From NCBI GenBank assembly GCA_027067955.1, contig JAMOUW010000001.1:1-64000 (forward strand): DNA of 64,000 nucleotides, written 5' to 3'. This stretch comes from Thermaceae bacterium (lineage in GTDB: Bacteria; Deinococcota; Deinococci; Deinococcales; Marinithermaceae). This document shows positions 4,006 through 53,712 of this stretch, in pieces; within the stretch, counting starts at the first letter, position 1; the number at the start of each line of letters is the position of its first letter. The notes under the pieces are model-generated. The model was not told the DNA's origin. It worked only from the letters and a program-made list of their open reading frames with translations, and ran no database searches. The translations under genes and the position numbers were made by a program.

Positions 4006-4156
4006 GCCTGACCTCCCTTCCTCTGGAATCTCGCGTACGTCAGCAGCACCTTCCCGCAGGTCGGGCTGCGATTTGGTTTCGTTGTCATGTTCAAAGTTAC
4101 CCATAAGTTTAGTCTACCCTTATCAGATTTTACTGCAAATTTACTTATAAGTCTAG

Positions 4157-6784
4157 TTAAACCCGGGTCCCCAACCTGCGCCGGGAAAGAAAATCCTTCA
4201 TCCAGCGGCTAAAGGCCTCGGCCTGCATTGGGCGCGCAACGAAAAATCCCTGCACCCAGTCGCAGCCGGTGCCGCGCAACCAATCGAGCTGGCGCAGGCT
4301 TTCCACGCCCTCGACGGTTATCTTGAGACCCAGATTCCCACCGAGGGCGAATATGGAACGTAAAACCGCTTCCGTTCGCTGATTCTTGCCGATGTCCCCG
4401 GTGAAGGCGCGATCCACCTTCAGCACGTTAACCGCCAGGTGAGCCAGGTAGGCGAGCGACGAGTAGCCGGTGCCGAAGTCGTCGACAGCAATACGAACCC
4501 CCAGTTTCCGCAGGCGCGCCAGCGGCTCCCGCACGCGCTCAATATCGGCAATGACCCTTTCAGTGATCTCCAGCGTCAGTCTGCCAGGTGGAAAACCCTT
4601 AACGCGAAGCAGCCGCTCGATGTTGCGCGTGAACTCCGGGTCGAGAATGCTGGCCGGGGACACATTGACAGACATTCCCGGCGCCTGCTCGCCCCAGCGT
4701 TCGATCCAACGCAGACCCTCGTCCATCGCCATCTCCAGCACCTTGGCGTCCAGCTGAACAACCAACCCGTACTGTTCCGCCAGGGGAACGAACTGGGACG
4801 GTTGGACGAACTCCCGGCTGCGAGCATCCCGCCAGCGTACCAGCGCCTCGGCGGCTGCAACCCTGTCCCCCGCCGGAGAGACCACCGGCTGGAAATGCAG
4901 GAACAGCTCGCCATCACCGGCAAGGGCCCGGCGCAGTGCCTCGACCCGCTCCCGCCGCGCGGCGGCCCTTTCCTGCAGCCCGGGCTCATATTCGTAAATG
5001 GCGCGCTTTTCCTCCTTGGCTACGGCCAGCGCCATATCGGCGCGCCGCAGCAGCGTCTCGGCGTCCGACCCATGGTCCGGGAAACGCACCAGCCCCGCCC
5101 GTGCCGAAAGCCTGACGTGATTGTCGTGCAACGAAACGAAGTCGCCGATCTGATGCAGCACCTGCACGAGCAGGCTTTTATAATCGTCCCCGCTAAGCAC
5201 CACTACGAACTCGTCTCCACCCCAGCGCGCCGCCCATACACCAATGGGCGACAACGAACGCAGGCGAAAGGCCACCTGGCGCAGGAGCCGGTCGCCGGTC
5301 TCATGTCCCCAGGTGTCGTTTATCTCCCCGAAGTCCATCAGATCCAAAAAGGCCACCGCGCCGGTGGACTGGGGCCGGGAGAGAAGGTGCGAAAGATAGC
5401 GATAGAGCGCCCGGCGATTAGGAAGATCACTGAGATCGTCATGGTATGCCTTGTGCGCAAGGTCGTCCATGGCCTTGCGGTAACGCAGCACCTGCCCCAT
5501 GAGCTGCCCCACCTGCTGCACGAAACGTATGGCGTCCTCGTCCAGGCGCCGCTCATCGCGGAAGCCGATGCCCAAAACCCCGTACGGGGCTTTCTCCCCG
5601 GGTATCGGCACGGTAAGGGTGGTTTGAATCCCCCAGTTGATCAGCGGCTCGGGAACCACGAAGCGGCGCTCGCTCGCCAGATCGCGGGATACGACCGGTT
5701 CATTTACTTTTTGGGTATAGCCCGCCTGAGAGCGCTCGCTGTCAAAGGCGACACCCGGGGCGACGCCCTTACCGGCGCGAACGCGCATCAACTGCTTATC
5801 GGCTTCGAACTCCATGATGGATATGAAATCGGGATGGAGCGCGCGTTCCAGGACCTCGATGACCTTGTCGAAAAAACGCTCGGGTTTGGTAATCTCCCAG
5901 GCGTGGGTCCCCAGATCATAGAGGGCCCGCTGACGTTCCGTGTTTACCCGGCTCAGAACCGCATGGCGTGCTTTTTCTTCAACGTCCATTAGGTAACCGA
6001 GGAATACCTCGGGATTGTCCGAAACCTTTTTGCCCTGCAGTGCCAGCCAGTGATGCTCGCCGGAAGCCACCTGAAACCGTACCCGGGTCTGATCGGCCCC
6101 CGCCTGGCGAAGCAGGGAAAAATGGCGCCGGAAAAGGCTCCTGTCCTCGGGATGCACCCTCTCCAGAAACTGTTCAGGCGGCCTGCCCAGCACCTCGGCC
6201 AGGGATATCCCCAACACCGTCGGTGCATTGGGCGATATGTAGGCCAGGGTTTGATCCGGCCCTTCCAGGCGATACAAAACCCAGGGACCGGTACGTAATA
6301 ACTCCTCCAGGAAAACCGAGGACTCCAGGGTGGCCCTTTCCAGTTCCTTTTCGCGGGTGACGTCCGTCATTACTCCCAGGTAGTAGCGCTCTCCTGAATC
6401 CGATTCAAAAAGTGTGACGGTGTCCCTTATCCAACGCCACTCACCGGCTCTGTGCTTCATACGGTAGGAAACCTCGACCGAAACTCCCGGCAACAGCCGG
6501 GCCAGCGACTGCATTACCCGGGGGCGGTCATCGGGGTGGAGTAGCTCGTACCAGGCACTGGGCCGCCGCAACCATTCCTCCGGCGAATAACCCAACATCT
6601 GCTCCAAAGCGCCCGTTGTGAAAAGGTTGGTGCACTTCTCGTCGGCAAGCGCCTGATAAACAACCACCGGGAGCCGCTCCGCCAGGAACCTCCACTCGCG
6701 TTTGGGGAGGTTAAAAGGCGGCGGCAGCCGCCGCTGTAATCGCCACCAGAGGGTGCGAAAGGTTTTTTCGACTCCTCCCATCAA
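4157..6784 (-). CDS. PAS/GAF sensor diguanylate cyclase-phosphodiesterase (GGDEF + EAL)
   Basis: PAS-type repeats, GAF-like region, intact RWGGDEFVVVLSG and AAEALVRWRD motifs, DDFGTGYSSL. Confidence 0.92.
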   Translation of the reverse strand: MMGGVEKTFRTLWWRLQRRLPPPFNLPKREWRFLAERLPVVVYQALADEKCTNLFTTGALEQMLGYSPEEWLRRPSAWYELLHPDDRPRVMQSLARLLPGVSVEVSYRMKHRAGEWRWIRDTVTLFESDSGERYYLGVMTDVTREKELERATLESSVFLEELLRTGPWVLYRLEGPDQTLAYISPNAPTVLGISLAEVLGRPPEQFLERVHPEDRSLFRRHFSLLRQAGADQTRVRFQVASGEHHWLALQGKKVSDNPEVFLGYLMDVEEKARHAVLSRVNTERQRALYDLGTHAWEITKPERFFDKVIEVLERALHPDFISIMEFEADKQLMRVRAGKGVAPGVAFDSERSQAGYTQKVNEPVVSRDLASERRFVVPEPLINWGIQTTLTVPIPGEKAPYGVLGIGFRDERRLDEDAIRFVQQVGQLMGQVLRYRKAMDDLAHKAYHDDLSDLPNRRALYRYLSHLLSRPQSTGAVAFLDLMDFGEINDTWGHETGDRLLRQVAFRLRSLSPIGVWAARWGGDEFVVVLSGDDYKSLLVQVLHQIGDFVSLHDNHVRLSARAGLVRFPDHGSDAETLLRRADMALAVAKEEKRAIYEYEPGLQERAAARRERVEALRRALAGDGELFLHFQPVVSPAGDRVAAAEALVRWRDARSREFVQPSQFVPLAEQYGLVVQLDAKVLEMAMDEGLRWIERWGEQAPGMSVNVSPASILDPEFTRNIERLLRVKGFPPGRLTLEITERVIADIERVREPLARLRKLGVRIAVDDFGTGYSSLAYLAHLAVNVLKVDRAFTGDIGKNQRTEAVLRSIFALGGNLGLKITVEGVESLRQLDWLRGTGCDWVQGFFVARPMQAEAFSRWMKDFLSRRRLGTRV

Positions 6785-49940: not shown

Positions 49941-50149
49941 GAACCCGATTGTACCCTAGGGGGCGAAACCGGTCGAATCACCAGCGCCGCGCGGCAACCA
50001 CGGCAGGAAATAAAACCTCTCCCACACGAACCAACCGCCTCAAACGCCGCCCGGAAGCGGAGCCGTGGAACTCGGAAAGCGCAGTAACCGCGGCGACTAC
50101 GGGAAACGCCAGCGAACCCCCGACCGCACGGATCAGTAAACTAGATGGC

Positions 50150-51238
50150 ATGCGTATCGGCCTGCTCGCTTACGGCGGCCTCGGCGGCAGCGGTACCGTA
50201 GCAGCGGAACTGGCCCAGATACTCGCGTCCAGGGGCCACGATGTGGCGCTGCTATCCAACCGCCGCCCGTTTCGCCTGCGTCCCGGCTCGAGCGTAAACT
50301 ACGTCCCCGTGCGCGTACCGGAGCACCCCGTGCTTCCCGGCGCCCTCTACGGCCTCGCGGCGGCCGGAGCGCTGCGCGCAGCTGCGCTCCGGTTCGAGTT
50401 CGAGGTGGTGCACACCCACTACGCCATCCCCCATGCCGCCAGCGCCCGGTTGGCGGAGCTGACAATACCGCTGGTACACACGCTCCACGGCACCGACGTA
50501 AACCTGCTGGGTCTCGACCCGGTATTCCGCGAGGTGACAGCGCTAGCCCTTGCGGGAACCCGGGTGACGGCCGTGTCTCGATCCCTGGCGGCGCAGGCGC
50601 GGGTCGCTTTTGGGGTAGACGCTGCGGTCGTGCCCAACTTCGTGGATGCCGAACGCTTCGCACCCCGCCCGGAGTTGAAAACGCGCTACGTGGAAACCGG
50701 CGAGGCGATGATAGTGCACGCATCTAATTTTCGCGCGATCAAGCGCACGCCCGATCTGATACGCGCCTTCGCCCACCTGTTGCGGATGGGCGTCAGAGCC
50801 CGGCTGGTTTTCCTGGGGGACGGTCCGGAACGTCCCCTGGCAGCCCGCATCGCCCGCATTCTGGGAGTGCGGGAGCGGGTGCGCTTCCTGCCTCCCACCA
50901 CCCGCCCCGAGGAGGTAGTGGGAGCCGCCGATCTCTTCTGGCTGCACTCGCAAGAGGAGTCATTCGGGCTGGCAGCGCTGGAAGCGCTGGCCTCCGGGGT
51001 GCCGGTGGTGGCTACCCGGATCGGCGGATTGAGCGAGGTGGTACGTCACGGCGAAACCGGCTGGCTGGTGGAACTGGGGGACGTACACGCCCAGGCCGCC
51101 GCCAGCGCCCGCCTGCTGGCCGATCCCGGAACGCTGGCGGAAATGCGACGGGCGGCGCGCGCCGATGCCCGCAGCCGTTTCCACCCGGAGCGCATCGTCG
51201 ACTCGTACTTGAATATCTACCAGGAAGTCAGAGTGTAG
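50150..51238 (+). CDS. bshA: N-acetyl-alpha-D-glucosaminyl L-malate synthase BshA (bacillithiol biosynthesis)
   Basis: GT4 fold: GLLAYGGLGGSGTVAAELAQ, VHTHYAIPHAASARLA, LHGTDVNLLG, VHASNFRAIKRTPDLIRAF, SQEESFGLAALEALASGVPVVAT; ORF extends upstream to 49949. Confidence 0.85.
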   Translation: MRIGLLAYGGLGGSGTVAAELAQILASRGHDVALLSNRRPFRLRPGSSVNYVPVRVPEHPVLPGALYGLAAAGALRAAALRFEFEVVHTHYAIPHAASARLAELTIPLVHTLHGTDVNLLGLDPVFREVTALALAGTRVTAVSRSLAAQARVAFGVDAAVVPNFVDAERFAPRPELKTRYVETGEAMIVHASNFRAIKRTPDLIRAFAHLLRMGVRARLVFLGDGPERPLAARIARILGVRERVRFLPPTTRPEEVVGAADLFWLHSQEESFGLAALEALASGVPVVATRIGGLSEVVRHGETGWLVELGDVHAQAAASARLLADPGTLAEMRRAARADARSRFHPERIVDSYLNIYQEVRV

Positions 51239-52175
51239 GCTCGGGTACGACCGTGATCGGTTTCTTTTCCGCACGTGCCCGCAGCGATTCCCGGGAGCCA
51301 TAATCGGTAGCCACGGGCAGTGCCCCGGGCTCGATGGACACCTCGAGGATGTCGGAGGCGGGCAGCGCCTCGCCGTCGGTTTGTAGTTGAACGGGGCGGT
51401 CGAAGACGATCCGCACGTTCATCCCGCCCCGGTGACCCACGCGCGCATGGCCCAGATGCCGACCGAGCAACAAACGGGGCAAAATCCCCAATACTCCGGC
51501 GCGGCCGAAAGCCCCGGCCCAAATGAACTCCATCCGGCCGTCATCGGGTCGCGCCATCGGCGCGATAGGAAATCCGCCGCCGTAGGTGGTGCTGTTCATG
51601 ACCGCGCCAAGGAGCATGGGGCCGGAATATACCTCCTTCCCGTCCACCAGCGCAATTGCCCGGGGCAGCTCCAGGTCTCCGAGCACCGAAGCCAGCGCCC
51701 ACAGATAGCGCGGCAGGCCGCGCAGATAACCGGGCGCGGCCTCGGCGCGTTCGGCTACCGCCGCGTCAAAACCAGCGGTGGCGCTCGAGGCGAAGGGTTC
51801 GTTGCCCACGCACCCCCTGTCAAAGCGCGCGATCCCGCCCCACAGGGCCGTGGCCAGGGCGCGCTCGAGGCCCATCCGGTGCAGCCCCGCCATACGCGCG
51901 ATGTCGTTTCCGGAACCGGACGGCACCAAACCCAATACCTGCCCCGGACCCAGGGCGCGCACAACCTCATGGGCGGTTCCGTCACCGCCCACCGCCACCA
52001 CCCGTGCATCCGGCGGCGACATACGTGTCAGTTCGCTGGCGTGCCCGGGACTCTCGGTCGTCCAAACCGGCACCTCGGGCGCCCAGCGGTGCACCCACGC
52101 TTTTATGCGCGCAATCCGGGATCCAGCGAGGCCCCGTCCCGCCACCGGATTGACCACAATGACCGCGGGATCCAT
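51228..52175 (-). CDS. Diacylglycerol kinase family lipid kinase
   Basis: VIVVNPVAGRGLAGSRIARI, VVAVGGDGTAHEVVRAL, LGLVPSGSGNDIARM. Confidence 0.9.
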   Translation of the reverse strand: MDPAVIVVNPVAGRGLAGSRIARIKAWVHRWAPEVPVWTTESPGHASELTRMSPPDARVVAVGGDGTAHEVVRALGPGQVLGLVPSGSGNDIARMAGLHRMGLERALATALWGGIARFDRGCVGNEPFASSATAGFDAAVAERAEAAPGYLRGLPRYLWALASVLGDLELPRAIALVDGKEVYSGPMLLGAVMNSTTYGGGFPIAPMARPDDGRMEFIWAGAFGRAGVLGILPRLLLGRHLGHARVGHRGGMNVRIVFDRPVQLQTDGEALPASDILEVSIEPGALPVATDYGSRESLRARAEKKPITVVPEPTL

Positions 52176-52202
52176 TGGCCCATTGTATACGCCGGTGAGA
52201 TA

Positions 52203-52841
52203 ATGTCCTCCATGGGTATGCTGGCCCGTTTCCTGGAAGGAGCACCGCCACCGACCCGGTTCTGGCTTACCCGCGCGGGTCCGGTAGAAAATCCCGGTGG
52301 AGTCCTGTACAGCCACCCGGGTTTGCCTCTTTCTAACGCGGGTACCATCGCTATCAGAGACCTTGCCAGGCGGCTTGACGGAAAGGCTGTGGCCCACGTT
52401 TACGCCGCGGACAGCCAGGCCGAAAGCGAGGCCGCCCGGATACTCGCAGAACTGCTGGACGCCCGCCATACGCTGGCACCCGAGCTGCGCGAACGCTCCT
52501 GGGGCAGCTGGGAGGGAATGTCCTTCACGGAGGTACGCGACCGCTATCCCGCCGCCGTGGAAAGCTGGAAAAGCGATGAGGCCGGTTTCTCCCCGCCAGG
52601 CGGTGAAAGCCTGCTAGATGTCCGCAGCAGGTCCCTACCATTCCTGGAGCAAATACGTAAACGACACACGGCCGCGACGGTGGTGATCGTGGGCAACTGC
52701 GCGGTCAACAGGGTGGCGCTGGCGATGGCGCTGCCGTTTCTGACCCCCGCCGAAGGGCTGCGCCTGGAGCAGGACTACGCTTCCTGGACGGAGCTGCGCT
52801 TCTACGGAGCCGACGGCGTTCTTGTACGCCTCAATACCTGA
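52203..52841 (+). CDS. Histidine phosphatase-fold protein, probably catalytically inactive
   Basis: Fold motifs WLTRAGPVE, RERSWGSWEGMSFTEV, PPGGESLLDVRSRSLPFL, VVIVGNCAVNRV; the RHG His and the second catalytic His are absent; start could be 52212. Confidence 0.8.
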   Translation: MSSMGMLARFLEGAPPPTRFWLTRAGPVENPGGVLYSHPGLPLSNAGTIAIRDLARRLDGKAVAHVYAADSQAESEAARILAELLDARHTLAPELRERSWGSWEGMSFTEVRDRYPAAVESWKSDEAGFSPPGGESLLDVRSRSLPFLEQIRKRHTAATVVIVGNCAVNRVALAMALPFLTPAEGLRLEQDYASWTELRFYGADGVLVRLNT

Positions 52842-52866
52842 GAGCAGTGCTACAATCAAGACAAGC

Positions 52867-53712
52867 ATGGTACGGCCGGTACGCCCCGACGACCTGAGCG
52901 GTCTGCTAGCGCTGCTGCGCTGGATGGACGCCAACCCCTCCCGCCGCGTCCTCGCCCCGGAAGCGCGCAGCGAAGACGAGCTCTGGTGGGCCGCCGATGA
53001 AGGCTGGGTGCTGGATCACAACGGCAAAATCGCCGGCTACGCGGCCCTTTACCCCTTCCGCCAGGGCGGAGCCCTGGAGGGGCCGCTGGCCCGCGACGCC
53101 GACCCGGCGCCGCTGCTGGAGCAGGCCGATCACGAAGCCGCCCTGCGAAACTGGCACACTTTGTACGCCTTCCCCCACGAGACCAACACCGAGCTGCAAA
53201 ACATCCTCAAGGGCGCCGGCTACGCGCCCTTGCACACCTCCTATTTTTTCACCACGCCCCCGCGTGACCTCACCTACCCCCCGCCCGCAGGCGTGCGTAT
53301 AGAACACGTGGAGAACCTGGACCCCGCCGTCTACTGCGACCTATACCGCAGAAGTGAAGACGCCTGGAGCATGCGTCTCGACTGGCCGGCGCTCAAGCTG
53401 ATCGAGCATTTCAACCGCCCCGACGTTGACCTCTGGTACGCCCTGGAAAACGACCGCCCGGTGGGACTGGTGGAACTCGAAACTGCCCCCGAGGGGGCCG
53501 AGATCGCCTACCTGGGCGTCATTCCCGAAGCCCGGGGCCGCGGGGTGGGGCGGGCGCTCCTGGCGGTAGCCGCGGCCCACGCCTTCGCACGCGGGGCCCA
53601 CCAGCTAAAGGTACGCGCCCACGACCACGAGAAAGCCGCCATGGCGCTCTACGAGCGTTTGGGGTTCACGCTCGCCGACGCTGTAGTGACCTTCGCCAAA
53701 GAGCTAGGCTGA
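52867..53712 (+). CDS. GNAT-family N-acetyltransferase (tandem)
   Basis: IAYLGVIPEARGRGVGRALLAVAAAHA... ALYERLGFTLAD. Confidence 0.9.
   Translation: MVRPVRPDDLSGLLALLRWMDANPSRRVLAPEARSEDELWWAADEGWVLDHNGKIAGYAALYPFRQGGALEGPLARDADPAPLLEQADHEAALRNWHTLYAFPHETNTELQNILKGAGYAPLHTSYFFTTPPRDLTYPPPAGVRIEHVENLDPAVYCDLYRRSEDAWSMRLDWPALKLIEHFNRPDVDLWYALENDRPVGLVELETAPEGAEIAYLGVIPEARGRGVGRALLAVAAAHAFARGAHQLKVRAHDHEKAAMALYERLGFTLADAVVTFAKELG

Follow-up and report, generated by a model that had tools for sequence, protein, structure and literature searches.

The phosphohistidine mechanism of histidine phosphatases requires the histidine of the RHG motif. Phosphoserine phosphatase 1 of Hydrogenobacter thermophilus (4ij5, 4ij6) and PhoE/YhfR (1h2e, 1ebb) share their whole fold with the protein analyzed here (TM 0.83-0.86), and have in common with it the first arginine, the asparagine, the glutamate, and a PPGGES-type loop. 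They differ from it at the sequence level, with an identity of about 26%, and in the fact that both catalytic histidines and the second arginine are missing from our protein. Pseudoenzymes of the histidine phosphatase fold that we found described are eukaryotic. The flea salivary proteins XcAP-1, XcAP-2, and XcAP-3, which are of the histidine acid phosphatase type, have lost both catalytic histidines, as is the case here; they lack activity and are ligand-binding, with amines and a fatty acid as ligands, and the fatty acid sits close to where the catalytic residues once were (PMC10728186). These flea proteins are secreted animal members of another branch of the superfamily with a recent loss, whereas the protein described here is a bacterial branch 1 member in which the loss appears to be ancient. 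In fungal PFK2-b, an RHG-to-RAG change in the FBPase-2 domain reportedly eliminates phosphatase activity (PMC9721465). That branch 1 domain shows the same change as our protein but forms part of a two-domain kinase/phosphatase, while the bacterial protein has a single domain and no kinase domain. No description of a bacterial pseudo-histidine-phosphatase, or of the family reported below, was found in the open-access literature searched.

The gene examined lies in a 64,000-nucleotide stretch of a Thermaceae bacterium (contig JAMOUW010000001.1, positions 1 to 64,000), hereafter the window; the features of the locus are collected in Table 1. By kinship, the window comes from an Oceanithermus genome: in G001, a genome of the same genus, one contig matches the plasmid of Oceanithermus profundus DSM 14977 with 100% identity across the 12 kb searched. 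Genus g6 corresponds to Thermus plasmids and g23 to Allomeiothermus. An initial annotation of the window placed an intact open reading frame at 52203-52841, divergent from a DAG kinase-like gene. The frame translates as described, and its end and its orientation relative to the kinase gene are correct, but translation probably starts at ATG 52212 rather than at ATG 52203, as conservation among the orthologs begins at MGMLARF, which corresponds to the downstream codon, and the upstream codon overlaps a promoter-like GATAAT. Residue numbers counted from ATG 52212, which are used below unless stated otherwise, are 3 lower than those of the protein as first annotated. The GATAAT and the TTGGCC preceding it, both read from the sequence like the other promoter elements of the cluster and not from a scored prediction, make a leaderless transcript probable, and similar A+T-rich hexamers occur near the start of the orthologous genes. 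The kinase gene has a TACAAT of its own at 52187-52182, with 37 bases separating the two divergent start codons, and a further TACAAT at 52851-52856 precedes the downstream GNAT gene, which may have its own promoter. The distance from each of the three elements to the start codon of its gene (kinase, pseudophosphatase, or GNAT) is 6-10 bases, which suggests leaderless transcripts.

Table 1. Features of the pseudophosphatase locus in window coordinates.
Feature	Coordinates	Strand	Details and basis
YegS/DAGK-like lipid kinase gene, divergent	51228..52175	-	Likely start ATG 52175, read from sequence; DAGK_cat and YegS_C domains
TTGGCC, -35-like, ahead of pseudophosphatase gene	52175-52180	+	Read from sequence
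GATAAT, -10-like	52199..52204	+	7 nt ahead of ATG 52212; read from sequence
N-terminal extension (MSS) of the initial annotation, probably untranslated	52203..52211	+	Overlaps GATAAT; not conserved among orthologs
Pseudophosphatase CDS, probable start ATG 52212	52212..52841	+	209 aa; stop TGA 52839-52841; Pfam His_Phos_1, ortholog conservation, AlphaFold2 pLDDT 92.1
LTRAG at RHG motif position	52266..52280	+	Codons CTT ACC CGC GCG GGT; Ala instead of the catalytic His (codon 52275-52277); counterpart of 1ebb chain R8-H9-G10
Ala at second phosphate-binding Arg position	52419..52421	+	Aligned to 1ebb chain R58; Ala in 35/35
Glu kept at general acid position	52491..52493	+	Aligned to 1ebb chain E82; invariant
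GNC (Asn, then Cys) at second catalytic His position	52692..52700	+	Counterpart of 1ebb chain T149-H150-G151; N and C invariant (35/35), G in 34/35
GNAT-family acetyltransferase gene, downstream	52867..53712	+	Likely start ATG 52867, orthologs align from about there; Acetyltransf_1 E 4.8e-23

The proposal that this gene encodes a protein with a histidine phosphatase fold is borne out by profile and structure comparisons. Pfam His_Phos_1 (PF00300), the profile of branch 1 of the superfamily, matches residues 21-211 of the reading frame as first annotated with an E-value of 1.4e-38 and a score of 132.9 bits, against a curated cut-off of 21.7. An AlphaFold2 model (pLDDT 92, pTM 0.89) predicts a phosphoglycerate-mutase-like fold, and a structure search with this model returned the H. 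thermophilus phosphoserine phosphatase as the top solved match, its H9A mutant first (4ij6, TM 0.86), with PhoE also among the best. By descent and predicted fold, the protein is a single-domain, stand-alone member of branch 1. Among NCBIfam profiles, the best similarity was to the alpha-ribazole phosphatase CobC (TIGR03162), yet the score of 96.3 bits is far under the curated cut-off of 162.9 and the catalytic histidine is missing; an identity as the cobalamin phosphatase was rejected.

Alignment to the PhoE structure 1ebb upholds the three substitutions proposed initially, namely RAG in place of RHG, replacement of the second catalytic histidine, and loss of an arginine. In the initial numbering, Ala25 corresponds to His9, Asn165 to His150, and Ala73 to Arg58, while Arg24, Asn30, and Glu97 are retained as the counterparts of Arg8, Asn15, and Glu82. 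Counted from ATG 52212, these positions and the adjoining cysteine become Arg21, Ala22, Asn27, Ala70, Glu94, Asn162, and Cys163. The phospho-accepting histidine, the second pocket histidine, and the second phosphate-binding arginine of an active enzyme are therefore all missing, the general acid (Glu or Asp) is present as the invariant Glu94, and a phosphohistidine cannot form here because the RHG histidine is absent. A displaced catalytic motif was rejected, as no RHG occurs at any other place in the sequence. Within its genome, only this gene carries the change, since the four other His_Phos_1 proteins encoded there have R-H at the motif.

A profile built from 19 orthologs and applied to 111 Deinococcota genomes at a threshold of 1e-25 or better found the family in 40 of them, comprising the Oceanithermus family (f1), Thermus (g6), and one sister genus (g25). 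Every Thermus genome listed has a member, and two low-completeness genomes of the Oceanithermus family gave no match to the profile. Identity of the orthologs to the window protein is 53-71%, against at most 39% for the family members that come next. Thirty-six copies are full-length, and all 36 contain RAG (as LTRAG) and the Asn-Cys pair; of the remaining four, three are incomplete or located at the end of a contig, the fourth carries a frameshift, and a fragment in G087 was left outside the motif count. No ortholog with a normal RHG, which would have spoken against a retained pseudoenzyme, occurs among the full-length copies. The frameshifted copy is found in a single-contig Thermus genome (G080, L087 about 4037-4700), and the gene may be dispensable if this frameshift is real rather than a sequencing error. 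The main text of a Thermus Tn-seq paper does not mention such a gene, and the method used does not separate essential genes. Beyond Deinococcota, a search of genome contigs for relatives returned only a 30% match in Pseudomonas. Matches in plasmid records had at most about 36% identity. The intact pseudophosphatases all group in a single clade (100/99), set apart from the canonical members by a long branch, as would be expected if the catalytic residues had been lost once, long ago; with branches of this length, the exact sister group is uncertain.

Within 35 aligned sequences, Arg21, Ala22, Gly23, Asn27, His35, Asp67, Ala70, Glu94, Asn162, and Cys163 are invariant. Mean entropy was 0.10 for the former active-site columns versus 0.84 overall, with a permutation p of 5e-5 that is descriptive only, the columns having been chosen after viewing the alignment. 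Such conservation of the former active site is the opposite of what relaxed decay would leave in these sequences. Within genera, the median NG86 dN/dS of the pseudophosphatase was 0.22; the kinase had 0.205 and the GNAT gene 0.217. Over a wider set of pairs, the median for the pseudophosphatase was 0.29. The protein thus combines a conserved fold and lost catalytic residues with purifying selection across orthologs, as expected of a pseudoenzyme, and its gene looks like a working gene and not a relic. The initial suggestion of a retained pseudoenzyme is well supported by the RAG and Asn-Cys replacements in 36/36 copies, a dN/dS like that of the neighbors, and a conserved place between two genes.

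The order of kinase (reverse), pseudophosphatase (forward), and GNAT (forward) is kept in nearly all Oceanithermus and Thermus genomes with a long enough contig. In the exceptions, about 8 kb separate the kinase and pseudophosphatase genes (G090), these two genes are on separate contigs (G088), or about 1.2 kb lie between the pseudophosphatase and GNAT genes (G020). In one Thermus genome (G053, L054 7126-7967), two overlapping matches divide the GNAT gene between them, which points to a frameshift. Relatives of the kinase are present in 104 of the 111 genomes, and the GNAT protein, for which 7wx5 is the solved structure closest in sequence, in 68, distributed over Thermaceae, the Oceanithermus family, and some other Deinococcota. 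The wider flanks differ: bshA, his genes, endonuclease V, and a phosphoglucose-isomerase-like gene adjoin the cluster only in Oceanithermus and partly in its family. A bshA gene for a bacillithiol glycosyltransferase (TIGR03999 above cut-off) is located at 50147-51238 (+) in the window. It lies beside the cluster in some Oceanithermus genomes only and is absent near the pseudophosphatase gene in Thermus, and a bacillithiol link was rejected on this basis. In Allomeiothermus (g23), as in g12 and g24, two genera that we take to be Meiothermus and relatives, the kinase and GNAT genes are divergent neighbors with 130-220 bases between their aligned parts and no pseudophosphatase gene between them. 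In the kinase tree, these three genera group together (97/90) next to Thermus and g25 (85/90), and the Oceanithermus family falls outside. As Allomeiothermus and its relatives keep the pair without the pseudophosphatase, the simplest history is that the common ancestor of the two families already had the gene and that a single loss followed later.

The reading we prefer, with a probability of roughly 60%, is that the gene encodes an ancient stand-alone pseudophosphatase, the phosphohistidine mechanism having been lost before Oceanithermus and Thermus diverged and the protein retained for binding. A pocket containing Arg21, Ala22, Asn27, Glu94, Asn162, Cys163, and probably His35 and Asp67 would bind a small ligand without hydrolyzing it. 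A candidate ligand is a phosphorylated or acyl metabolite connected with the neighboring kinase or acetyltransferase, and the protein would then act as a sensor, carrier, or allosteric subunit. The flea XcAP family is the best precedent for ligand binding. H-to-A mutants engineered in this fold have been crystallized with phosphoserine (5zr2) and with fructose-6-phosphate (2bif); the natural protein has the very replacement that is made deliberately in the laboratory when an inactive form of the fold with bound ligand is wanted. Consistent with the binding model, Oceanithermus and Thermus share the kinase-pseudophosphatase-GNAT block although their flanks differ. Counting against it, the kinase-GNAT pair persists without the pseudophosphatase in Allomeiothermus and related genera, and thus does not require it; the frameshifted G080 copy and the possible separate promoter of the GNAT gene also weigh on that side, and adjacency of genes does not prove a shared pathway. 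Given the adjoining lipid-kinase-like gene, a lipid or acyl ligand could be worth testing.

The alternative that survives best, though we consider it unlikely, is that a different reaction is now catalyzed at the rebuilt former active site, with Cys163 acting together with Asn162, Glu94, and His35 in what would be another kind of enzyme. The invariance of these four residues and of Asp67 in the 35 sequences would suit this proposal, and new catalysis, too, would be expected to leave polar residues strictly conserved at the former active site. However, we know of no enzyme of the His_Phos_1 fold with a Cys/Asn/Glu/His site of this kind. Somewhat less probable is a protein with no small-molecule ligand at all that serves as a structural partner, or scaffold, of the GNAT protein or the lipid kinase. 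Gene order conserved with both of these genes and the many invariant Trp, Gly, and Pro residues outside the former active site are consistent with a scaffold, but it is at the former active site that conservation is strongest, and both putative partners persist in Allomeiothermus and related genera where the pseudophosphatase is missing. Ligand binding is favored over a purely structural role because the rebuilt pocket is kept and invariant.

Thermales have unusual phosphoglycolipids. A more specific and more doubtful proposal than either of these is that the pocket now binds a lipid or acyl metabolite, or forms a new catalytic site from Asn162, Cys163, His35, and Glu94, for a Thermales-specific step linked to the adjacent lipid kinase and acetyltransferase, for example in making such lipids.

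The normal phosphatase reaction has almost certainly been lost, judging from established knowledge of the superfamily and the effect reported for fungal PFK2-b (PMC9721465). Continued phosphatase activity through another nucleophile or an alternative histidine would be very improbable: Arg21, Asn27, and Glu94 of the phosphate pocket are kept and His35 is invariant, but both histidines and the second arginine are gone, and in PFK2-b the same change is reported to abolish the activity. A decaying pseudogene or sequencing artefact, for which the one frameshifted copy in G080 might be cited, is rejected in view of the 36 intact copies with identical replacements, a dN/dS equal to that of the neighbors, and the normal paralogs in the same genome.

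If the preferred reading is true, the pseudophosphatase represents an ancient bacterial family, spread across two families of Thermales, in which normal selection has maintained the protein after its catalytic histidines were lost. For this gene, labels assigned automatically, for instance "histidine phosphatase family protein" or "phosphoglycerate mutase", would be misleading. Its presence in Thermus, whose proteins crystallize well and in which knock-outs are routine, makes the ligand and role of the family directly testable.
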